From a virus, in the IMG/VR virus record IMGVR_UViG_3300042691_006802, positions 1 to 50,397 of that record: a stretch of DNA of 50,397 bases; one strand, written 5' to 3'. Below, in pieces: positions 6,111 through 16,314 of the stretch. Below the pieces are notes generated by a model. That model saw nothing but the letters and a program-made list of their open reading frames with translations. It had not been told where the DNA came from and ran no database searches. Position numbers and translations under genes: made by a program. Position 1 is the first letter of the stretch. The number at the start of each line of letters is the position of its first letter.

Positions 6111-7265
6111 TTACACAGTGATACAAGCGTTGTCGTATAGCCAACAGGCGATGTAGTCCACATCACACATTGACAGCATGGCTCTTGCTTCTTCGAGCAA
6201 TTCATCGGTGATCAGCTTTTTGTCAATTAGACGCGCAGCTAACGTAGGGTCTTCAGGATACACCGATTCTGCGATGAATTCAATCAGGTATTTGTGATGG
6301 CCTGAGAGGGCATCAAAGATCAGCTCCCGAAAGTAGTCCTTTTCGTCTTCGTCTGAGGCGTAAAACTCATACGCTTCAGCGGACAGCCCCGCAAAAGAAG
6401 AGTTGACACTGGTCGCCCCGCCCCCCAGCCCATCGTAGAGACTGCCGTACGCTCCGCCCCACTTGTACCCGTAGAGGGAGTCCTCGTCAGGCTCCAGCGG
6501 GTCACGCGATGTGGGCAGGGCATCCCAGTTGATGCGCAGCACCTGAGACGCAAGGGTTGTGAAGTGCACAAGGTCAAGCTGTTCTCGTTCGCTGTGCTCG
6601 TAGTCGTAGCCCACGCTGATGTTGGTGCACTCGGGGATGACATCAACGAACTCGGCGGTGTCGGTGTAAATGCCTGTGTTGTCTGGCAAGTACATGAGTG
6701 CTAACTCCTCGTTGAGTGCATCAGCCAAACTCTGGGCGAACACATCGGAGCAGCACCGCCCCCAGCCTTGGTGCGAGATGACGGAGTCAATGCCACGCCT
6801 GTCAAACGCAATGGCCCTGTCGAACTGGGACAGGATGTGGGCGTAGTTGTCCCGCAGGTACTTGGCACCCTTGCCGCCACGCTCCTCGCCTTGGGTGAAT
6901 ACGTAGTATGCGGGCACACCGCTGTGGAGCAGGTGCATGAGCATGGCACAGCCAGCACCATCGTCTGCGCCAAGCTGGGAGCCATCGGCGTACCACATGG
7001 ACGGGGTCTTGCGGATGTTGTTCTTGCCGTCAGAACTGTGCACTGTGTCAACGTGCGCCACGAACAGGGTGCGGTTGGCATCGGACTGCCGAGCGTCAAT
7101 GTGCACATTGCCAAACGCATCACGGAACGATTGCTTCCTGTGCTGTTTGGGTATGGCGCACCACAGCCAGTCAGTGAAGCGGGCTGCGCCTGTGCCGCCA
7201 TCGGGGCGCTTGATCGAGAGTGCATGGGCGAGGGTCTTGTAGAGCATGGATCGTTTGTTCATCAT
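6111..7265 (-). CDS. M20-like zinc metallopeptidase, 384 aa
   Basis: The spacing of metal ligands fits the M20/M28/M42 di-zinc peptidase fold: AHVDTVH (His71, Asp73), LGADDGAG (Asp101), GEERGG (catalytic/metal Glu pair 127-128), AFDRRG (Asp155) and DYEHSE (His224). This fold cleaves peptides or amide bonds. The substrate here is unknown. The C-terminal 130 residues, acidic and helical, do not match the usual dimerisation domain. It is the second largest gene of the leftward arm and overlaps the stop of the cysteine-rich gene. ATGATG leaves two possible starts three bases apart. Confidence 0.75.
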   Translation of the reverse strand: MMNKRSMLYKTLAHALSIKRPDGGTGAARFTDWLWCAIPKQHRKQSFRDAFGNVHIDARQSDANRTLFVAHVDTVHSSDGKNNIRKTPSMWYADGSQLGADDGAGCAMLMHLLHSGVPAYYVFTQGEERGGKGAKYLRDNYAHILSQFDRAIAFDRRGIDSVISHQGWGRCCSDVFAQSLADALNEELALMYLPDNTGIYTDTAEFVDVIPECTNISVGYDYEHSEREQLDLVHFTTLASQVLRINWDALPTSRDPLEPDEDSLYGYKWGGAYGSLYDGLGGGATSVNSSFAGLSAEAYEFYASDEDEKDYFRELIFDALSGHHKYLIEFIAESVYPEDPTLAARLIDKKLITDELLEEARAMLSMCDVDYIACWLYDNACITV

Positions 7266-8596
7266 TCATCTCCTTGGGTTTCATTCAGGGGCAGGTCAAG
7301 CTGGTCAGGGTTGGGCGCATGGTCGGGGTGGTATGTATTGCCATCGACCTCAACGCATTCAGTGGCATCGGTGTACCAATTGCACGTCTCAGCGCACTGC
7401 CAGCAGTCGTCAGTCAACTCGTATCGCTCAGTGTCCTCGGCGTAGCAGATGCGCTCGTCATCCGTGCGGTAGTACTCATCGCATGACTCGATGAGCACAG
7501 CGTTGTCAATGTGCACGATGCTGCCGTTACTCAGCTGAACCATGTCGTTGTCATCGAGGTACTCGATGACATAGTGCTCGTCGTCATCGTCACAGAACAC
7601 GCACTCGTCTTCACTCTCGTAGTACTGATTGCCGCGTGCGCCATACGCATGGCAGTAGCTGTCGATGCAACACGGGCCGATGCGTCTGTCAGCCCAGCGG
7701 CCAACCCAGTACGAGTCGTCCTCATCGTGGTTGTCGCCACAGTCCTCACACTCAACGCCGCACACACCGACAGTGCCGTCAGTTTGGCACGCCTCGTACT
7801 CACCACTGGACTCAATGGTCATGTACGTGCTGTGGTCATCAATCGCACGATTGTCGCCGTCAATGTATGGCATCACGAACCCATCAAATTGCTGCTCGAT
7901 GCGTGCAACCCGAGCACCGATAGGCCAGCCGCTAAGCTTGGTGTAGCCCTGATCCTTGAGCCACGCTTCAAGCTTCTCGTCAGCGTGCGAGTACCCGCCG
8001 TTGGGACAGCGTTTGTACGACCGCACAAACACAGGGCCATCTTCTTCATCGTCGTTCAAGCACAGCGCACGACCCTCGACTTGCCCGCCATTCTTGCGCA
8101 CCGCCATGTGCCAGCCATACTCGGGTTTGTAAACTGCGTAAGGGTGTGCGACAAGCTGAAGGAAGCTGTTTGACATACACGAGTGCGGACCACTACGCAC
8201 AGCGGCAACCATCTCGTCAGTCGTATGCACGAACTGCAACGTATGACCCGATGTGTCATAGAGCGCAACGATATCTCGAAGCTCATGGTCAGGCATATCG
8301 AAGTGACGGCGCAGGTACTTGCCAACGCTTGTCACTGTCTGGATGTCCTCGGCACCCTTGCGTTCGTTCTGCGTGTACGCCACACGCTCACCATCTTCTG
8401 CTTTGTGCGGCCACTCAAGCAAGAGTTGCTGCCAGTCAACGGGGCGGTAGATCGACATGGCTTTCTCGACCACAGGATGCAGGTCGTACTTGTCGCGCTC
8501 ACGCTTGAACCACCAGCGGTGGTTGCACAAGATGTGGCAAGCGCGATGCCAAGTGTCGTAGAACGCAAAGCTTTCAGAGTTTGATGTCCACTTCAT
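7262..8596 (-). CDS. Cysteine-rich acidic hypothetical protein, 444 aa
   Basis: Not a recognised enzyme. The N-terminal half has Trp/His-rich patterns (YDTWHRACHILCNHRWWF) and a conserved-looking segment RSGPHSCMSNSF. The C-terminal half is very acidic and has repeated cysteine pairs (CGVECEDCG, PCCIDSYC, ECVFC, CWQCAETC) that could bind several metals, ending TYHPDHAP. The start at 8596 follows AAAGGAGCAACACC. The upstream in-frame start at 8650 would run into the palindromic element. Coupled by ATGA to the peptidase gene, which suggests joint function. Confidence 0.65.
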   Translation of the reverse strand: MKWTSNSESFAFYDTWHRACHILCNHRWWFKRERDKYDLHPVVEKAMSIYRPVDWQQLLLEWPHKAEDGERVAYTQNERKGAEDIQTVTSVGKYLRRHFDMPDHELRDIVALYDTSGHTLQFVHTTDEMVAAVRSGPHSCMSNSFLQLVAHPYAVYKPEYGWHMAVRKNGGQVEGRALCLNDDEEDGPVFVRSYKRCPNGGYSHADEKLEAWLKDQGYTKLSGWPIGARVARIEQQFDGFVMPYIDGDNRAIDDHSTYMTIESSGEYEACQTDGTVGVCGVECEDCGDNHDEDDSYWVGRWADRRIGPCCIDSYCHAYGARGNQYYESEDECVFCDDDDEHYVIEYLDDNDMVQLSNGSIVHIDNAVLIESCDEYYRTDDERICYAEDTERYELTDDCWQCAETCNWYTDATECVEVDGNTYHPDHAPNPDQLDLPLNETQGDE

Positions 8597-8629: not shown

Positions 8630-8652
8630 CCGTGGGACAGGGTGTCCCACGG
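8630..8652. repeat. Dispersed palindrome copy 1
   Basis: Perfect inverted repeat with ten-base arms CCGTGGGACA / TGTCCCACGG around a GGG centre. It lies between the genes at 7262-8596 and 8672-8911. One of six copies in 5 kb. Confidence 0.85.
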
Positions 8653-8671
8653 GGTTGTCTGGTCTCTTTTA

Positions 8672-8911
8672 TTATTCTTTCCATTCAAGCGTTTTGTCGC
8701 TTCCGTTGTAGTTGCCATAGTCATAGTTGGTCATGACCAAGACCTCAAGCGCGTGCTTGTCTGTGTTGACCCACACCCCTGTGGGTATGTAGCCGTTGAT
8801 GTGGCGTGACAAGTCGCTGAAGTAAATGCGGTTCTTGTCTCTATCGTACTCAGCCACTATGCGTTGTCCATGCTCGTCGTATTGACGGCCTGTGTTCCAT
8901 TGATGTTTCAT
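8672..8911 (-). CDS. Hypothetical protein, 79 aa
   Basis: Starts MKHQWNTGRQYDEHGQRI with a beta-rich middle (IYFSDLSRHINGYI, then GVWVNTDKHALEVLV) and NYDYGNYN near the end. The pattern is common among small phage proteins of unknown role. The start at 8911 follows GAGGAATGAG, placing it immediately after the neighbour's stop. Confidence 0.6.
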   Translation of the reverse strand: MKHQWNTGRQYDEHGQRIVAEYDRDKNRIYFSDLSRHINGYIPTGVWVNTDKHALEVLVMTNYDYGNYNGSDKTLEWKE

Positions 8912-8912
8912 C

Positions 8913-9098
8913 TCATTCCTCCTCGATTGGTTCATCAACATCTGCCTGTGTGTACCCAGTCAGAATCTCAGGGCGGTACTGACTGAGCTTTGCTTCAGCG
9001 CACAGGTCGCACACTCGGCACAGCGGTATGCCTCGTGCATCGTATTCCCACCACGAGTACTGACCCTCGTGTGTGCAGTGGCGCGGGTCTTGTTTCAT
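8913..9098 (-). CDS. Conserved phage cysteine-motif protein, 61 aa
   Basis: Reads through YSWWEYDARGIPLCRVCDLC, with a CxxCxxC knuckle, and ends with ADVDEPIEEE. This arrangement recurs in many small phage proteins. With CTHEG near the start it may bind zinc. The start at 9098 follows GAAAGAAATG-type spacing after the upstream gene, and the ATG overlaps its stop. Function unknown. Confidence 0.65.
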   Translation of the reverse strand: MKQDPRHCTHEGQYSWWEYDARGIPLCRVCDLCAEAKLSQYRPEILTGYTQADVDEPIEEE

Positions 9099-9349
9099 TT
9101 CTTTCCTTTCTTCGGCACAAAATGGCCGAGCCATTGTGAGCCCTCGACCTGTGGTTGGAACCACTTGATCTCGTAGTTGGTGTCATACGAGACTGGCACG
9201 AGGAACAGGTTGTATGGATGCCCGTCACTGTCCATCAGCTTTATTAACTGGCGCAGGTCACGCTCACTGTTTGTGGTTGCCCACTGCGCTACGCTTGCAG
9301 CGTAAAAGTGGAAGGTGTCGGGGTGTGGGTGTTGTTGTTGCGTTGTCAT
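9095..9349 (-). CDS. Hypothetical protein, 84 aa
   Basis: A polar N-terminus with Gln/His (MTTQQQHPHPDTFHF), a helix ERDLRQLIKLMDSDG and a beta-rich C-terminus ending VPKKGKK. No family recognised. Starts after AGGAGAAAAAG and overlaps both neighbours by four bases. Confidence 0.6.
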   Translation of the reverse strand: MTTQQQHPHPDTFHFYAASVAQWATTNSERDLRQLIKLMDSDGHPYNLFLVPVSYDTNYEIKWFQPQVEGSQWLGHFVPKKGKK

Positions 9350-9549
9350 TCTTTTTCTCCTATGAGTTGGTTGCGAATGTCGTCAAGTTGTTCGAGCACT
9401 GCTTCTCTTGAACCTTTGAACCCCATGCCACGCAGTACCGAGTATGCGGTGCGTCCACGGCGTTTCATTCCACGCAGCTCAAGCTTGAGTGCTTGGCGCA
9501 GGGTCAAGAGGCGTGCAGCCTCGATCTGGTTTCCTGTCAGCGTTGTCAT
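9346..9549 (-). CDS. Hypothetical basic protein, 67 aa
   Basis: Helical and Arg/Leu-rich (ARLLTLRQALKLELRGMKRR), ending DDIRNQLIGEKE. It could bind nucleic acid, but no motif proves it. The start at 9549 overlaps the upstream stop. The longer start at 9579 lies within the upstream gene. Confidence 0.55.
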   Translation of the reverse strand: MTTLTGNQIEAARLLTLRQALKLELRGMKRRGRTAYSVLRGMGFKGSREAVLEQLDDIRNQLIGEKE

Positions 9550-9797
9550 TTCATGTTCCTTTTTGGTTGAAGTGGCCATAGTTTGTATCCCACACAGTCT
9601 GGCGTGTGGAATAGTCCGTCCTCCCCGATTGCACTGTCGTGCAGGACCATTGAATCAGGGTGCTTGGTGTGGCAGGGGAACCCGCCTGATCGAATGATGG
9701 TTGCGATCTTGCTCCTTAAAAGGTTTCGGTCTGACTCAGGTCTTGTTGGTTTGCACGGGCAATCGGCGCAAACACTTGGCTTTTCCTTCTCTGTCAT
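9546..9797 (-). CDS. Cysteine-cluster small protein, 83 aa
   Basis: Cysteines CADCPC near the N-terminus, FPCHTKHP in the middle and DCVGY toward the C-terminus form a spaced set of potential metal ligands, as seen in small phage cysteine-cluster proteins with PF-CH motifs. Function unknown. The start follows AACCAAGGAGAAAGCAAATG, a leader that also precedes the gene at 10515-11189. Confidence 0.6.
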   Translation of the reverse strand: MTEKEKPSVCADCPCKPTRPESDRNLLRSKIATIIRSGGFPCHTKHPDSMVLHDSAIGEDGLFHTPDCVGYKLWPLQPKRNMK

Positions 9798-10027
9798 TTG
9801 CTTTCTCCTTGGTTGGTTTGTTGATCAATCGGTGGGACATCGTGTCCCACGGCAAAGAGGTTGTCCCTCTCCTCCTCGTCATCGATGAGCTCTGCCTCAC
9901 AGCAGTCACTCACCTCGTATGTTTCCCTGTGCGTTCCTGTCGCACCCCAGTATTCGTAGTCGAACTCCTCAACTATCTCGATGGCCTCGCACGGCTCACC
10001 GCAGTCTGCGCACCAGTAGTAACTCAT
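9794..10027 (-). CDS. Zinc-knuckle phage protein with palindrome-encoded tail, 77 aa
   Basis: Starts MSYYWCADCGEPCEAI, followed by an acidic stretch and VSDCCEAEL. The CxxCxxxC and CC ligands suggest a zinc ribbon common in small phage proteins. The C-terminus VGHDVPP is encoded by a copy of the dispersed palindrome. ATG at 10027 has AAGGAG seven bases upstream. The GTG two codons earlier is too close to the ribosome binding site. Confidence 0.65.
   Translation of the reverse strand: MSYYWCADCGEPCEAIEIVEEFDYEYWGATGTHRETYEVSDCCEAELIDDEEERDNLFAVGHDVPPIDQQTNQGESK
9795..9825 (-). repeat. Duplicated 31-base leader, copy 1
   Basis: Identical to 11187-11217. Here it lies inside the end of the gene at 9794-10027 and forms the ribosome binding site and start of 9546-9797. 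Confidence 0.75.
9832..9850. repeat. Dispersed palindrome copy 2 (in gene)
   Basis: GTGGGACA-TCG-TGTCCCAC, perfect eight-base arms. It sits in frame near the 3' end of the gene at 9794-10027, where it codes for VGHDVPP. Confidence 0.85.
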
Positions 10028-10029
10028 CT

Positions 10030-10260
10030 TCACTCTCCTTGTGGTTGGGTTGCTACCATGGTCTGCAAGCGGTCTCTGAAGACCTGCAATCGGTCGAGTC
10101 TTTCTTGCACTTCGCCAATCTTTCGATTGCGAAACGCTTCGTCCATGTGGAAGTAGCGTTTGTCTACATACTCACGCACAGTAGTGCGTTGGTTGCAATG
10201 CTCTTGCAACGCCCTCAACACGGCTTCAGCCGTTTCCATTGGTAGTTTTATTTCAATCAT
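10030..10260 (-). CDS. Coiled-coil hypothetical protein, 76 aa
   Basis: A likely single long helix in the C-terminal half (NRKIGEVQERLDRLQVFRDR), preceded by ETAEAVLRALQEHCNQ. No family recognised. AAAGGAGAGAGCAA precedes the ATG. Confidence 0.6.
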   Translation of the reverse strand: MIEIKLPMETAEAVLRALQEHCNQRTTVREYVDKRYFHMDEAFRNRKIGEVQERLDRLQVFRDRLQTMVATQPQGE

Positions 10261-10272
10261 TTGCTCTCTCCT

Positions 10273-10503
10273 TTACTTCATGATGATCTTCCAACCCATG
10301 GCCTTGAGCACACGGGTCACTGATGTGTCTCTGCCAAACGGCGCATCGACTGTGGCGATCTGCTTCTTCTTGTCGAAGGTCACCACAGTGCCTGACCTTG
10401 GTATGAGCCACTTGCCCCCATCTCGGATGTTGTTGACCAGCTGCTTTGTCCAGAGCATGGCGTTGACCATGCCCTCCTTTGTGTTGAGGTCGTAGTTGTC
10501 CAT
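10273..10503 (-). CDS. Hypothetical protein, 76 aa
   Basis: Begins MDNYDLNTKEGMVNAMLWT and then reads GTVVTFDKKKQIATVDAPFG, a beta-rich stretch, ending VLKAMGWKIIMK. The start at 10503 has CAGGAGAAGTG just upstream, which decides it over longer frames. Function unknown. Confidence 0.6.
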   Translation of the reverse strand: MDNYDLNTKEGMVNAMLWTKQLVNNIRDGGKWLIPRSGTVVTFDKKKQIATVDAPFGRDTSVTRVLKAMGWKIIMK

Positions 10504-10514
10504 CACTTCTCCTG

Positions 10515-11189
10515 TTATGGTTGCCCATCTCGTCCAATCCAACCCATCCCAGCGTAGTCGCTGGGGTCTTCGCGCATTGGGATACTGTCGCGCCACGGCG
10601 TGATCTCCCACTCCCCGATCCTCAATGACTTCTCCTTTGTGTTTCCAAACGCCCAGTTGTGCGCCCATTTCTCGAACGCTTGGACAGTCTCGACAGGGAT
10701 GGCGGGGTGCGGTATGCCTTGCCCTTCGTCCTCGCCATTGTGTTGCCAGCCCCACCAGTGGTAGTTGTCGCCAGACGGAGACAAGTTCTCGCCCCATCCA
10801 ATGTTGACAAGGTATGTCTCCTCCCATCTGCCTTCACGCCCGACTCGAAATCCCTCGTACTCTTGGTTGTCATCACGCGCCACATCTGCCTTGTGCCACG
10901 CGCTGGTGATGCAGTCTTGTACTGCGGCTATCCTCCAATCGTCGGTGCTCGCATAGCCCAGACCCTCGGTATCAAAGTCGTCGGACACGCTGACCTCGAC
11001 CTTGATCTTGACCCCGTCCTCTGACCAGATGCGAGCGCTGGCGATCTCTTTCTTGCTGGAGTACCACCCTGTGTCGAACGGGGTATGCTCGACCAGCGCC
11101 GCTGTCAACTGCGCCTCGCCATCCTCGTACCAATCGGACAAGCCACAGTGTGCGCCGTCCCCGTTTTGAAATGCGTCAAGTACTTTCAT
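10515..11189 (-). CDS. Hypothetical protein, 224 aa
   Basis: An acidic, Trp-rich protein. The N-terminus (DAFQNGDGAHCGLSDWYEDG) is followed by a mixed alpha/beta body with DDNQEYEGFRVGREGRWEET and a Trp/His stretch NYHWWGWQHNGEDEG, then PHPAIPVETVQAFEKWAHNW. No known domain recognised. The start at 11189 follows the same AACCAAGGAGAAAGCAAATG leader as 9546-9797. Longer in-frame starts run through upstream genes and are rejected. Confidence 0.6.
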   Translation of the reverse strand: MKVLDAFQNGDGAHCGLSDWYEDGEAQLTAALVEHTPFDTGWYSSKKEIASARIWSEDGVKIKVEVSVSDDFDTEGLGYASTDDWRIAAVQDCITSAWHKADVARDDNQEYEGFRVGREGRWEETYLVNIGWGENLSPSGDNYHWWGWQHNGEDEGQGIPHPAIPVETVQAFEKWAHNWAFGNTKEKSLRIGEWEITPWRDSIPMREDPSDYAGMGWIGRDGQP

Positions 11190-11217
11190 TTGCTTTCTCC
11201 TTGGTTGGTTTGTTGAT
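11187..11217 (-). repeat. Duplicated 31-base leader, copy 2
   Basis: Identical over 31 bases to 9795-9825. Its minus strand contains AACCAAGGAGAAAGCAAATG, the start region of the gene at 10515-11189. Both copies have a palindrome a few bases upstream. Confidence 0.75.
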
Positions 11218-11218
11218 A

Positions 11219-11242
11219 ACTGGGGTGAACATTCACCCCAGT
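11219..11242. repeat. Intergenic hairpin ACTGGGGTGAA/TTCACCCCAGT
   Basis: Perfect eleven-base inverted repeat with a two-base centre in a 59-base gap. The T-rich run after it is on the plus-strand side (TTTCTTTTC), whereas neighbouring genes run leftward, so it is not a clear terminator for them. It may be an operator or RNA structure. Confidence 0.7.
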
Positions 11243-11248
11243 TTCTTT

Positions 11249-11437
11249 TCACTTCGCTTCCTCCATTCCCCACATGGCGTGTGCCTTCTCGAACAGGTGC
11301 ATGAAGGCGGTCTCGATGCGGCGTTGGTTGTCTGAGTCCGCCAGCAAATACGCCTTTGATAGTGCGGTGGCAAACCCGCCAAGGCGGGGCAGGTGGTTGA
11401 CTGCAAGCTTGTGCAGTTGTTGTTTGGTCAGTGTCAT
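11249..11437 (-). CDS. Hypothetical helical protein, 62 aa
   Basis: MTLTKQQLHKLAVNHLPRLG, then a helix AYLLADSDNQRRIETAFMHL, ending AMWGMEEAK. Helical, no family recognised. Overlaps the upstream stop by four bases. Confidence 0.6.
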   Translation of the reverse strand: MTLTKQQLHKLAVNHLPRLGGFATALSKAYLLADSDNQRRIETAFMHLFEKAHAMWGMEEAK

Positions 11438-11673
11438 TGCTTCTCTCCTTCGTAAAGCGTTTCCGAAATGTTGCCGTTGCGGTAGACGTAGACACGCAAG
11501 GTGTCTTCATCCCCGCCGTGGTAGTCAGACCCATCGACATTGATGTCGAAGTTTTTGTAGGCGTACCAAGTGTCAACGCCTGGTTTTTCTACTGCGTGTG
11601 TGACATCGAGCACACCTTGCAGGTATGCGTTGGCCACGGCAATCGCTTCTTCCAGTCCTTCTTCAATCTCCAT
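11434..11673 (-). CDS. Hypothetical protein, 79 aa
   Basis: An N-terminal helix (EIEEGLEEAIAVANAYLQG) is followed by an acidic beta-rich part (NFDINVDGSDYHGGDEDTLR, then VYVYRNGNI). Function unknown. The start at 11673 follows AAGGAGAGAGCA and overlaps the upstream gene by eleven bases. The longer in-frame reading to 12000 is an overlap artefact. Confidence 0.6.
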   Translation of the reverse strand: MEIEEGLEEAIAVANAYLQGVLDVTHAVEKPGVDTWYAYKNFDINVDGSDYHGGDEDTLRVYVYRNGNISETLYEGEKQ

Positions 11674-12295
11674 TGCTCTCTCCTTCTTGGGTTGGTATGT
11701 CCCGTGTGAACGGGGTCTTGGTGCGTGCTTTCGCACGATGGGGGATGTTGCTAAACAGCAGCATGATCTGGTCTTTCTTCCTGTCAGACACCCAGTCTGT
11801 CCAGTGCTGGGCACGGGAGCGCAGGTGAACGGGCGGGGCAAGGTGCGGCTTGCCAGCATCTCGCAACTCATTGGCCAGCTCGTTTGGCGTGAAGTCCTGC
11901 TTGAGTGCGGTGCGAAACCGCTGGAGCAGGGTTGTGAGCAAGGCGTGGTATGCCTCGTATGCGGTCTGCCTTGCGGTGTCTCTGTCGTTTGGTGGGACAT
12001 CGTGTCCCACGGCTACGGCTTCAGCCGCCTCATCATTTTTCCGATAGTTGAGTGCAACCTGCACACGTTTGCGCTCAGCCATGAGCGGGTCGATGAGGTG
12101 TTGCCATTCCGATTCCACCATCGACCTTCGGCGCTGGCTGTTGGCTCGGGCAGTCTTTTGCTGGTTCACGATGTCGATGATCTCTTGGGCGAGGGTTCTC
12201 GGCCAGCCCTTGGCTTGGAGTTTGTCACGCAGGGCACGTTCGCTGAGTGCCATGTACGAGGGGTATTTGAGGCGGGGTTTTGCGTTGGGTTGCAT
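11663..12295 (-). CDS. Hypothetical protein with palindrome-encoded insert, 210 aa
   Basis: Basic, helical protein. The N-terminal SYMALSERALRDKLQAKGWP is followed by helices rich in Arg and Gln (QQKTARANSQRRRSMVE). AVAVGHDVPPNDRD in the middle is encoded by the dispersed palindrome and looks like an insertion between two helices. The C-terminus is Arg/Lys-rich. It may bind nucleic acid, by inference. It is preceded by the non-coding region 12296-12724 and is likely the first gene of its transcript. Confidence 0.6.
   Translation of the reverse strand: MQPNAKPRLKYPSYMALSERALRDKLQAKGWPRTLAQEIIDIVNQQKTARANSQRRRSMVESEWQHLIDPLMAERKRVQVALNYRKNDEAAEAVAVGHDVPPNDRDTARQTAYEAYHALLTTLLQRFRTALKQDFTPNELANELRDAGKPHLAPPVHLRSRAQHWTDWVSDRKKDQIMLLFSNIPHRAKARTKTPFTRDIPTQEGESNGD
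11992..12010. repeat. Dispersed palindrome copy 3 (in gene)
   Basis: GTGGGACA-TCG-TGTCCCAC inside the gene at 11663-12295, in frame, coding for VGHDVPP as copy 2 does. Confidence 0.85.
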
Positions 12296-12698
12296 GGGGA
12301 GAAGTCCTTTCTTTTGTCAAAGATTGTAACGCAAAGCGGAAAAATGACCAGATTGTCCAGAAAGTGTCCATCAAACTTCCTTTTTTAAAAATGTTTGGAC
12401 AGCAAAAAAGCTAGGATTCATGCGGGTTGCAGGGGCTCACGTCCAAGTGTCCATCGCTGGGGAAAAACTTTATGGTCTAAACCTTTTTGTGTTTTTGTTT
12501 GTATGTGTGTCTTGATGTACGGGTACATATATAAATACTTTTCTTAAAAGATGTATATATATATGGACATTTGGACGCGTGCCTCTGGAAGCCGCATGAA
12601 TGCTGAGTTTTTTGGTGTCCATTGTGTGGTATGCGTGGAAGAATGATGGGCCTGCAAAAAATGAGTGTCCATTTCCGTTTTAAAAGTGGAAGAATGAT
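12296..12698. promoter_or_regulatory. Non-coding AT-rich region with TGTCCA boxes
   Basis: About 400 bases without a convincing gene. TGTCCA occurs at 12354, 12365, 12448, 12616 and 12666, and its complement TGGACA at 12396 and 12564. GTGGAAGAATGATGG occurs twice, at 12635 and 12686, each 19-20 bases after a TGTCCA box. A run of alternating T/A (12522-12565) is flexible, easily melted DNA. Together this looks like a control region or a replication origin. No protein that binds it can be named. Confidence 0.5.
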
Positions 12699-12719
12699 GG
12701 TGGGACATGATGTCCCACC
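12699..12719. repeat. Dispersed palindrome copy 4
   Basis: GGTGGGACA-TGA-TGTCCCACC, perfect nine-base arms. It lies between the box-rich region and the gene at 12725-12967, abutting the second GTGGAAGAATGATGG repeat. Confidence 0.85.
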
Positions 12720-12724
12720 GAGTT

Positions 12725-12967
12725 TTAGTGGCACAGGGCAGCTTGCTGCGGGGTTAAGCGTAGCTTTCTTTTTTCCTGTTCGTAGGACTCACGGGTTGTG
12801 CAGGTGATGCCTGTGCCTTGGTTGCACCTGCGTGGGTGCAGGGTTATCAGCCAGAAGGTGGGATGCTTCGTGCCGTGGGGGAAGTAGGTTTCGGATTGCC
12901 ATTCCACGCCATCGTTGGCAAGGAAGGTTTCGAGGGGTTTGAAGGTGGGGCGGGAAGTTGTACGCAT
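12725..12967 (-). CDS. Hypothetical protein, 80 aa
   Basis: Starts MRTTSRPTFKPLETFLANDG and continues with aromatic strands (VEWQSETYFPHG, FWLITLHP), ending with a Glu/Lys helix. No family recognised. CTGGAGAACCACC precedes the ATG at 12967. Confidence 0.55.
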   Translation of the reverse strand: MRTTSRPTFKPLETFLANDGVEWQSETYFPHGTKHPTFWLITLHPRRCNQGTGITCTTRESYEQEKRKLRLTPQQAALCH

Positions 12968-13036
12968 GGTGGTTCTCCAGTTGTCGGGCAGGATTGCCCC
13001 CACAACCCACGCTGTGCATGGGCTGGGAGAGTTTCC

Positions 13037-13219
13037 TTATTCGGGGGAGACTTCAACGAGGTGGTCGAATGCGAAATGTCTCCACACGCTGGTTTTGGTG
13101 TTGCGGGTGGTGTGTTCACAGACGGCATGAAATGCGCTGATCTTTTTGTAGGTGCAGTTTTTGTGGATGAAGTAGTCGCCTACATCAAGACCGCCAAAGT
13201 GTGTGCGAATGGTGTGCAT
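13037..13219 (-). CDS. Conserved small phage protein, 60 aa
   Basis: HFGGLDVGDYFIHKNCTYKK followed by ISAFHAVC, then FDHLVEV. The alternation of GD and hydrophobic strands points to a small beta-barrel like other small phage proteins with a 'VGD-F-H/Y' core. GGAGATTTTTCC precedes the ATG at 13219, which decides the start. Function unknown. Confidence 0.6.
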   Translation of the reverse strand: MHTIRTHFGGLDVGDYFIHKNCTYKKISAFHAVCEHTTRNTKTSVWRHFAFDHLVEVSPE

Positions 13220-13293
13220 GGAAAAATCTCCGTTAGACAAGGGAAAGAACAGCGGCCAGCCCTCTCAGGCGTGACCGCACAGGAAAAAACTCC

Positions 13294-13312
13294 GTGGGAC
13301 ATCGTGTCCCAC
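13294..13312. repeat. Dispersed palindrome copy 5
   Basis: GTGGGACA-TCG-TGTCCCAC in the 98-base gap between the genes at 13037-13219 and 13318-13746, close to the stop of the latter. Confidence 0.85.
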
Positions 13313-13317
13313 CAGAA

Positions 13318-13746
13318 TCAGGCAACAGCTTTGAGTGCGGCGATGGCATCTTTCAGACTCTCAAACTGAGCGAGATACGCCTTGGCCGCTTTGCGTGCAT
13401 CGGGTGAGATGCGGGCATGGGTTTTGGGCGTGGCGGGTTTCTCAGGCTTGAACCAGACCATGACGTTGCGCTCCCATGACTTGCGGGCGGCATCGTTGCG
13501 GGTGTCCCGTGTGGACTCATCGCCGTTGTAGAACACGGCACGGCCTTTGCCATCCCATGTGTAGTTGCACGCATACTTCGCCGCATGGACTTTGGCGAGT
13601 GCCCCGAGTAGCGTGGGACATGGTGTCCCACCGAGTTCACTCGCAGCTTTTCGCATGGCTTCGCCATACGAGATGCCCGCCTGCAAAAACTTGCCGTAGG
13701 CGTTGACTGCATCGGTTTGGGTTTGGGTGAGGGTTTTGGTGCTCAT
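13318..13746 (-). CDS. Hypothetical protein with palindrome-encoded insert, 142 aa
   Basis: Helical N-terminus (TQTQTDAVNAYGKFLQAGIS), then LGGTPCPTLLG, where the palindrome is read in a different frame from copies 2 and 3, then YTWDGKGRAVFYNGDE and a helical C-terminus. First gene of the leftward arm, starting after AAAGGAAAAACC. No family recognised. Confidence 0.6.
   Translation of the reverse strand: MSTKTLTQTQTDAVNAYGKFLQAGISYGEAMRKAASELGGTPCPTLLGALAKVHAAKYACNYTWDGKGRAVFYNGDESTRDTRNDAARKSWERNVMVWFKPEKPATPKTHARISPDARKAAKAYLAQFESLKDAIAALKAVA
13613..13631. repeat. Dispersed palindrome copy 6 (in gene)
   Basis: GTGGGACA-TGG-TGTCCCAC inside the gene at 13318-13746, in frame, coding for GGTPCPT. 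Confidence 0.85.
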
Positions 13747-13869
13747 GGTTTTTCCTTTCAAGAGCGGGTTGTCCTAAGCGACATTGCCTAGGATGACTCC
13801 ATTGTGCGGAACCCCCCAAACGAAAGGCATCGATACCCCATGCAATGCGTAAAAAACGAGGACTTTTGA

Positions 13870-13892: not shown

Positions 13893-14036
13893 AAACTATT
13901 GGCTACGTGGGGCGTCGCACAACAACACTATTCCCCACCCGCACTGCACAATCCCAGTAAATCTTTATAACTAAACAGCCCCCCTTCCCAAAATTCAGCC
14001 CAGCCCAAAAAATTTTTCAAAAATTTTGCAAAGCAC

Positions 14037-14220: not shown

Positions 14221-14810
14221 TTGCGATGAACTTTGAGGCGGAGGTGGACGACCTTGCGGGCCCCGCTGTCCCTCTTACAAAAGCCACACCGCAAGAAGTT
14301 GTCAGCGCCCAATCCAACACGGCAGAGTGGCTGTCAAAGTTTGGCAACAAGCCAGCAGACGAAGTTGTCTCCCACATCGAACAGCAAGACGCCAGAAAGG
14401 CGTTCTCTGCGCTCACCACCTCCACCAACCCAGAAGAGATCAAGGGCCAGCTCCTCCAGCTTCAGACCCCACCGGCCGTGCGCCACCTTGTGGGCATGCT
14501 GACTGCCTACGACTGGGAATTTGTACAGCAAGCCAAGCAGCTGCGCGGCTACGCCATGGCCAAGCTCTTGGAAGAGGTGGAGAACCCCAACGCCAACATC
14601 CGCCTGAAAGCGCTGGGGTTGCTTGGCAAGGTGACAGAGGTGGGGCTCTTCACAGACAAGATCGAGGTCAAGAAGACTGACCTCACAGAAGATGAGATCG
14701 AGGCCAAGCTCAAGGAAAAGCTGGCCAAGTTCATCGGCGTGCAAGACGCCGATATCGTAGACGCCGAAGAAGTCGAGCAAGAAGATGAACGCCCCGCTGA
14801 CCAAAGCTGA
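14205..14810 (+). CDS. terS: Terminase small subunit, 201 aa
   Basis: Placed directly before the large terminase, as usual for the DNA-recognition subunit of the packaging motor. The middle carries AKQLRGYAMAKLLEEVENPN followed by IRLKALGLLGKVTEVGLFTD, a helical pattern characteristic of small terminases in environmental tailed phages. The C-terminus is acidic (DADIVDAEEVEQEDE), suited to contact the large subunit. AGGAG lies five bases before the ATG. Overlaps terL by 26 bases. Confidence 0.75.
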   Translation: MLEHLIAMNFEAEVDDLAGPAVPLTKATPQEVVSAQSNTAEWLSKFGNKPADEVVSHIEQQDARKAFSALTTSTNPEEIKGQLLQLQTPPAVRHLVGMLTAYDWEFVQQAKQLRGYAMAKLLEEVENPNANIRLKALGLLGKVTEVGLFTDKIEVKKTDLTEDEIEAKLKEKLAKFIGVQDADIVDAEEVEQEDERPADQS

Positions 14811-16314
14811 AGCCGCTGCGCTCATGAAGAACCTCAGCGCCTTGACGCTGGAGGAGAAGCTCGAAGCGCTGGAGCTCATCGACCGGGTCGAGGAGAACAA
14901 GAAGAAGCAGTTGGCCAGAGGCGACATGATTGAGTTTGCCAAGGCGGTCTACCCGGGATTCAAGGTGGGGCCGCACCACAGGAAGCTGGCCAAGATCTTT
15001 GCGGACGTGATTTCCGGCAAAAAGAAGCGCGTGATCATCAACATCGCGCCTCGTATGGGCAAGTCCGAGTTCTCCAGCTACCTGTTCCCAGCCTTCTTTC
15101 TAGGTAATTACCCTGATAAGAAGATCATCATGGGCACGCACACGGCCAGTTTGTCGGAAGACTTTGGCCGACGGGTGAGGAACTTGATCGATGGGGAGGA
15201 GTTCCGTGAGCTGTTTCCAAAGACCTTGGTGGCAGACGACCAAAAAGCTGCTGGCAAGTGGAGCACAAGCGCTGGGGGTCAGTACTATGCTGCTGGTGTC
15301 GGCGGCGCTCTTGCTGGTCGTGGTGCTGACCTGTTCGTTATTGATGACCCGCACTCGGAACAAGACGTAAAGGCCAACAGCCGCTTGGCGTTTGACACGG
15401 CTTGGGCGTGGTTCCAGACCGGTCCGTTGCAGCGTTTGATGCCAAACGGAGCCATCATCGTCATCATGACGCGCTGGGGCAAGCTCGACCTCACCGGTCG
15501 CCTCATCGACTACCAGACCAAGAACCCGGACTCGGAGCCTTGGGAGATTGTGGAGCTGCCAGCCATCCTCAACGAGGGGTCAGACAACGAGAAGTCGCTC
15601 TGGCCGGAGCAGTGGCCGCTTGAGTCCCTGAAGCAGAAAAAGGCCGGTCTTGACCCCCAGTACTGGAACGCCCAGTACATGCAGAACCCCACGTCCAACC
15701 AAGCCGCCATCATCAGCAGGAAGCTCTGGCGCATATGGGAGGGCAGTGAGCCGCCCAAGTGCGAGTACATCATCCAGTCGTGGGACACGGCGTTTGAGGC
15801 CAAGACCACCGCTGACTACTCAGCGTGCACAACGTGGGGCGTGTTCTACAACGAGGAAGAGAACAACACCGCGCAGGTCATACTGCTCGACGCGTTCAAG
15901 GACAGGATGCAGTTTCCGGAGCTCAAGCAGGTTGCCTACAAGCACTACAAAGAATGGGATCCAGATGCGTTTTTGATTGAAAAGAAAGCCGCTGGGGCTC
16001 CGCTCATTCAGGAGCTGCGCAACATGGGCATACCCGTCTCGGAGTTCACACCTTCGAGGGGGAACGACAAGATCGTGCGTGTCAACGCGATTGCGGATTT
16101 GTTTCAATCAGGTAAAGTGTGGGCTCCTGACACCCGCTGGGCGCGTGAGGTCATTGAAGAAGTGGCATCGTTCCCCAACGGCGACAACGACGACTACGTC
16201 GATACGACGTCCCAAGCACTGATTCGGTTCAGACAAGGCGGACTCATTCCGCTTGAGTCTGATGAGAAAGACGAACCGACATTTTTCAAACGCCGCCGAG
16301 GCGGCTATTACTGA
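14785..16314 (+). CDS. terL: Terminase large subunit, 509 aa
   Basis: The packaging motor ATPase and nuclease. Walker A is APRMGKSE (88-95), Walker B FVIDDPH (184-190), and the coupling motif is near MTRWGKLDLTGR (228-239). The RNase H-like nuclease ligands are QSWDTAF (Asp334), FLIEKKAAG (Glu399) and DDYVDTTSQAL (Asp473). The length is normal for the family. It cuts concatemers and drives DNA into the prohead through the portal encoded just downstream. Confidence 0.95.
   Translation: MNAPLTKAEAAALMKNLSALTLEEKLEALELIDRVEENKKKQLARGDMIEFAKAVYPGFKVGPHHRKLAKIFADVISGKKKRVIINIAPRMGKSEFSSYLFPAFFLGNYPDKKIIMGTHTASLSEDFGRRVRNLIDGEEFRELFPKTLVADDQKAAGKWSTSAGGQYYAAGVGGALAGRGADLFVIDDPHSEQDVKANSRLAFDTAWAWFQTGPLQRLMPNGAIIVIMTRWGKLDLTGRLIDYQTKNPDSEPWEIVELPAILNEGSDNEKSLWPEQWPLESLKQKKAGLDPQYWNAQYMQNPTSNQAAIISRKLWRIWEGSEPPKCEYIIQSWDTAFEAKTTADYSACTTWGVFYNEEENNTAQVILLDAFKDRMQFPELKQVAYKHYKEWDPDAFLIEKKAAGAPLIQELRNMGIPVSEFTPSRGNDKIVRVNAIADLFQSGKVWAPDTRWAREVIEEVASFPNGDNDDYVDTTSQALIRFRQGGLIPLESDEKDEPTFFKRRRGGYY

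Follow-up and report, generated by a model that had tools for sequence, protein, structure and literature searches.

Cluster A stoperators, such as those of L5 and Bxb1, are asymmetric sites that are oriented with transcription, occur in 20–30 copies per genome and serve a monomeric repressor in temperate phages; the distance between their motifs tracks whole-genome distance (PMC6550527, PMC9283540). We analysed an incomplete, linear virus record of 50,397 bp (IMG/VR record IMGVR_UViG_3300042691_006802, hereafter the window, at its full length). Its left arm is a leftward operon that has g26 as its first gene and carries six exact copies of the palindrome GTGGGACA-N3-TGTCCCAC. These palindromes are probably dispersed, two-fold-symmetric operators read by the g26 product, which would regulate its own expression and restrain the early operon.

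Among described systems, the Cluster A stoperators are the one that we propose as the closest in operation. In both cases there are many copies of one site per phage, mostly outside coding sequence, the site sequence varies between phages along with the regulator (a role proposed here for g26), and sites also lie away from promoters, including around the regulator gene. In contrast to stoperators, the sites described here are perfectly palindromic, number about 3–8 per phage and occupy one arm. Moreover, g26 is not a homologue of the L5-type repressor and is unrelated to any library family, an integrase was not found in 11 relatives of 61–68 kb, and the motif is uncoupled from relatedness of the terminase large subunit (TerL). 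As site symmetry and protein family both differ, the system is not classed as a member of the Cluster A stoperators. On the best reading, it would be new with respect to them in joining palindromic sites and an unrelated protein in phages without recognisable integrases; no description of such a system was found in the literature, of which only open-access papers were searchable.

Lambda CI/Cro offers a second comparison, with palindromic operators whose half-sites are one turn apart (here 8-3-8, centres 11 bp apart), a matched protein/operator pair that sets specificity, and autoregulation, which is presumed here. Unlike the lambda operators, the sites are dispersed over an operon and not gathered in one promoter region, g26 has neither a helix-turn-helix family match nor an AlphaFold2 fold match, and a lysogeny module was not found.

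Palindromes in the window and in related phages

The first-pass annotation had described six copies with exact eight-base arms and the centres GGG, TCG, TCG, TGA, TCG and TGG, three of them between genes and three translated in frame, and all of these positions proved correct. The GGG copy (8632–8650, with ten-base arms reaching 8630–8652) lies between g17 and g16, the latter (7262–8596, minus strand) being the leftward gene immediately downstream and the presumed target. Next come a TCG copy at 9832–9850, close to the 3′ end of g20 (9794–10027, minus strand) and read on that strand as VGHDVPP, and a second one at 11992–12010 within g24 (11663–12295, minus strand), which also reads VGHDVPP. 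The TGA copy (12700–12718), whose longer arms at 12699–12719 were likewise correctly described, is directly past the stop of a minus-strand gene at 12725–12967. Finally, a TCG copy at 13294–13312 is found about 15 bp past the g26 stop, and the TGG copy (13613–13631) is about 115 bp into g26, where it reads GGTPCPT. A tolerance of 3 mismatches added no copy anywhere in the window, and our scan agreed with the earlier report that positions 14000–50397 are free of copies. The palindrome exceeds chance frequency, as dinucleotide shuffles of the window gave a mean of 0.41 copies with 3 mismatches allowed and 0 of 100 reached six.

Relatives were IMG/VR loci with a related TerL, taken regardless of motif; nearly all are metagenomic contigs, and gene starts are predicted. 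The anchor was the window TerL (g28; 14785–16314, plus strand), which together with g27 begins the right arm and downstream of which there are no sites. TerL anchoring was adopted because g26 protein scans of IMG/VR retrieved few loci (6, 7 and 13). For 150 distinct loci in which the sequence upstream of TerL extended over at least 1.4 kb, we defined a recurrent palindrome as at least two copies with 6+6 exact arms and a single spacer. The same arm contained one in 119 loci, against 1 of 150 shuffled stretches, and at least three copies were present in 89 loci, against none after shuffling. Motif and spacer vary between phages and are uniform inside each, at similar places relative to TerL. 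The raw count of 57 (arm, spacer) types is an over-count because arm boundaries vary, and merging by eye leaves about 30 distinct ones. Types with N3 are GTGGGACA, GTGATACA, GTGGAACA, GTGGCACA, GTGAGACA, CGGGGACA, GCGGACA, GCAGACA, GCTGACA and AGATAGA; those with other spacers are GGGGACT-N1, CGGGTCAC-N1, GTGGTCAA-N0, GTGGAGAA-N0, AACGGGGC-N6 and CTGGGGT-N8. An exact-pattern scan of IMG/VR for GTGGGACA-N3-TGTCCCAC retrieved 70 stretches, many holding three to six copies. Whole-record searches found six GTGATAC palindromes in each of two relatives of 61–62 kb, and four and six GTGGGACA palindromes in two records of 62–66 kb. Judged from this survey, the window palindrome belongs to a whole class of such elements that are phage-specific.

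The placement of the sites is equally regular. With at most one deviation allowed, 298 sites were detected upstream of TerL and 0 in 477 kb downstream of it. In 85 loci with distinct g26 N-terminal domains (N-domains), 257 sites were intergenic and 88 coding, intergenic DNA making up 28% of the arm by the gene calls used. Where an intergenic site had a preceding leftward gene, it was usually no more than 20 bp past the stop (154 of 225; median 15 bp, about 12–15). The first leftward gene was followed by a site in 77 of 77 scorable loci, which were chosen for a site near the stop, and in 69 of them a further site was present near the beginning of that gene, either inside it (35 loci, median 115 bp) or upstream (34 loci), never both. 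Among these 34 upstream sites, 20 were 24–42 bp and 14 were 93–136 bp from the start. The stop of g24 in relatives usually has a site after it as well. In the window, a −10-like element, CACAATGGAG (13806–13797), precedes the first leftward gene; by consensus match, CACAAT (13801–13806, minus strand) within it is the putative −10 element of a leftward early promoter. A strict −10 pattern was found in 24 of the 85 relatives and in none on the opposite strand.

Among named phages, the window TerL has 47–53% identity to those of Phage DSL-LC04 and Pelagibacter phages HTVC027P and HTVC023P, and 44% to that of Synechococcus phage MinM2. The stretches retrieved for DSL-LC04 and HTVC023P showed no recurrent palindrome, and in HTVC027P and 023Pt_psg01 the only families were either of low complexity or two-copy and chance-like. 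A megablast search of phage records with the region gave no match. A TerL scan of genome contigs retrieved just two metagenome-assembled contigs, which pointed to neither a host nor an integrated prophage. MinM2 (OQ594354; L181 and L277) carries 36 GGTTCAG-N-CTGAACC sites over 62 kb, with at most 2 deviations allowed and 0.15 expected by chance. As in the window system, several of them are 11–16 bp past leftward stops and one precedes the first leftward gene by 66 bp. Unlike in the window system, they occur in both arms, including the rightward structural genes, and BLASTP showed no significant similarity between the first leftward protein of MinM2 and the single g26-type protein compared with it. 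As a sequenced, named phage with a comparable site array, MinM2 makes part of our proposal testable.

Covariation with the g26 protein and selection on DNA

The 142-residue product of g26 (13318–13746, minus strand) comprises an N-domain (residues ~1–95) and a swappable C-terminal helical tail (~105–142). Motif similarity between phages correlated with identity over the N-terminal 92 residues (rho 0.46; Mantel 0/500), less so with that of the g26 tail (rho 0.20), and not with TerL identity (rho 0.04; Mantel 100/500). TerS and TerL were rejected as drivers of the motif (rho for TerS 0.12), and so was g24 as the reader, for which the correlation was weak (rho 0.19) and very different g24 proteins occur among phages that share a palindrome. 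Pairs with similar tails and different N-domains had a motif similarity of 3.2 against a background of 2.6, while pairs with similar N-domains and different tails reached 6.6. When 20 loci without a recurrent palindrome were searched for the motif of the nearest N-domain, it was present in 11, compared with 6 of 200 for unrelated motifs. Altogether, a match between site sequence and the g26 N-domain is well supported by these comparisons. The C-terminal 35–40 residues of g26-type proteins fall into few tail types (LRAVAK, LLNALK, KRRFLKAI and RDSVSFQ). These are combined freely with N-domains of differing specificity, suggesting recombination at the domain junction.

Within the N-domain, the strongest protein columns not encoded by the palindrome are D85, K89 and R88, which share one helix face; G40 and P44 are also strong columns, their codons lying within the in-gene palindrome. 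Among 33 class I proteins, residue 85 is Asp or Glu in 21 of 21 GTGGGACA phages and in 0 of 12 others (Fisher 2.8e-9, uncorrected for shared ancestry). At position 89, Lys or Gln accompanies G at the fifth base, Met accompanies A or C, and Gln accompanies T. The AlphaFold2 model of g26, with a predicted local distance difference test (pLDDT) score of 91.8, contains two helices, a beta hairpin, a helix at residues 85–94 and two tail helices; in that of the class II member L104, these elements follow in the same order, at lower confidence (83.3). The third helix of the N-domain (residues 85–94; 13465–13494, minus strand) most likely contacts the half-site as the recognition helix, the individual residue contacts being inferred. 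No convincing match to g26 was retrieved from Pfam, PDB sequences, PDB folds or BFVD. Three g26-type members match one unnamed PHROG (best 4e-4), and phage records searched by tblastn with three g26-type proteins (50,697 records in one scan) gave no matches. From the covariation, g26 very probably binds these palindromes.

In-gene copies allow selection on the DNA to be separated from selection on the peptide. Of the 7 codons that the palindrome spans inside g26, 6 have an invariant third base across 16 GTGGGACA phages, the exception being the centre codon; in the rest of the gene this holds for 1 of 48 conserved codons, and the mean top frequency outside the palindrome is 0.65. Where the in-gene palindrome is GTGATACA, GTGGAACA or GTGGCACA, GGTPCPT becomes GDTPCIT, GGTPCST or GGTPCAT, respectively. 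The peptide thus shifts along with the palindrome, contrary to the idea that VGHDVPP and GGTPCPT are selected as protein. On this codon evidence, selection on the palindrome acts at the DNA level, of which the in-frame reading of the in-gene copies is a by-product. Three relatives, L050, L055 and L066, are about 90–94% identical in DNA across most of their length. At five sites, L055 has GTGGAACA where L066 has GTGGGACA, with conserved flanks; a single GTGGAACA site is retained in L050, as is a single GTGGGACA site in L055. These leftover sites look like intermediates of a motif switch.

Proposed operator function and alternative explanations

In the mechanism that we propose, a g26 dimer would place one subunit on each half-site, the half-site centres being one helical turn (11 bp) apart. 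The copy near the g26 start, whether it lies within the gene, in its leader or close to the promoter, would act together with the copy past the stop to give negative autoregulation. Copies bound at gene ends along the operon would block RNA polymerase as roadblocks, so that early leftward transcription would shut itself off once g26 accumulates, as with stoperators. We lean towards such repression or roadblocking by bound g26. The operator set for the leftward genes that the first-pass annotation offered as one of two readings is strongly supported by these comparisons: palindromes occupy orthologous positions in relatives, covary with the first leftward protein and are absent downstream of TerL.

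Since the matched pair varies between phages independently of phylogeny, it would set a private specificity. Through this pair, a resident phage may perhaps silence a superinfecting phage of its own type, a step that we hold with some doubt. Specificity might then diversify since it decides which superinfecting phages are silenced, which we put forward with lower confidence. DNA polymerase A was found in 11 of 11 relatives of 61–68 kb, and no tyrosine integrase or resolvase in any of them, which leaves the usual lysogenic immunity without support; immunity, if any, would probably operate in the course of lytic infection or while the phage is present unintegrated. The most tentative version of the proposal is that a diverse set of aquatic phages, in which no integrase is recognisable, possesses a fast-diversifying self/non-self code. 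A new DNA-binding family would have its recognition helix and dispersed palindromic operators co-diversify into about 30 specificities at one locus, and a phage already in the cell would silence newcomers of the same type while other types escape.

Besides the absence of an integrase or resolvase, several points weigh against the proposal. The correlation tests use related sequences from which phylogeny is incompletely removed, and motif prediction from the nearest N-domain failed in 9 of 20 loci. No known DNA-binding fold was recognised for g26 in the libraries searched. Assignment of the first gene needed a site no more than 45 bp from its stop. Finally, the g26 promoter region in the window has no site, the nearest being 115 bp into the gene, and classical promoter occlusion is therefore unsupported for this phage.

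If g26 does read the sites, these phages would represent a natural large-scale experiment on protein–DNA specificity, with one small family facing dozens of palindromes and spacers. Each genome would itself report the specificity of its protein, and the whole would serve as a data set on the recognition code of an undescribed fold. It would also suggest that immunity-like specificity groups are kept by phages without a visible lysogeny module, which bears on why superinfection specificity diversifies.

Several other explanations were considered. It is improbable that g26 binds the sites as parS-like partition elements or replication iterons, to control copy number or segregation instead of transcription. 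Several copies do lie within a few kb, beside a 430-bp AT-rich, origin-like region with TGGACA repeats, but copies are spread across 5–7 kb at gene ends, flanking g26, and no ParA/ParB family match was obtained among the window left-arm proteins scanned.

Slightly less probable again is that the palindromes act as RNA hairpins at early-gene 3′ ends, be it as terminators, as elements for processing or stabilisation, or as targets of an RNA-binding protein. Their position directly past stop codons, their stems of 8 bp, and terminator-like scores for three strand readings in the window would all agree with this role. Yet the arm sequence itself is fixed within each phage, beyond mere pairing, and some sites fall within genes or else precede the first gene, in or close to its promoter. 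Furthermore, among 88 one-base deviations in one arm, the leftward mRNA keeps a G-U pair in 16, fewer than the 39 that give A-C or the 33 transversions, and RNA pairing is therefore not maintained.

Palindromic sites spaced by one turn are common among host regulators, and a host transcription factor or nucleoid protein could read the sites while g26 merely travels with them. This is very unlikely given the dozens of motif types among phages with closely related TerL and a motif choice that follows g26 residues on one helix face. The other half of the first-pass reading, a mobile repeat (REP- or PTE-like) that spreads through the arm, fits several identical copies with differing flanks, but it has to be given up almost entirely, because different palindromes occupy equivalent positions in related phages, the arms of L050 and L055 changed symmetrically in place with flanks unchanged, and the other arm has no copies.

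Other features of the left arm

The divergent protein encoded by g24 has a weak RecX_HTH1 match. Before g24, the window contains about 430 bp of AT-rich non-coding DNA (12296–12724) with seven copies of TGGACA/TGTCCA. AT-rich non-coding regions are found at the equivalent place in relatives, some of them sharing these repeats, and the stretch is a possible replication origin. A perfect palindrome of another type, AACTGGGGTGAA-N2-TTCACCCCAGTT, is located at 11218–11243, 6 bp past the g23 stop. It resembles the CTGGGGT palindromes of L080 and L082 and is absent from the close relative L151; it may be an imported operator of other specificity or a terminator. Elsewhere in the early arm, g15 (6111–7265, minus strand) matches a PHROG peptidase family and Pfam Peptidase_M28.

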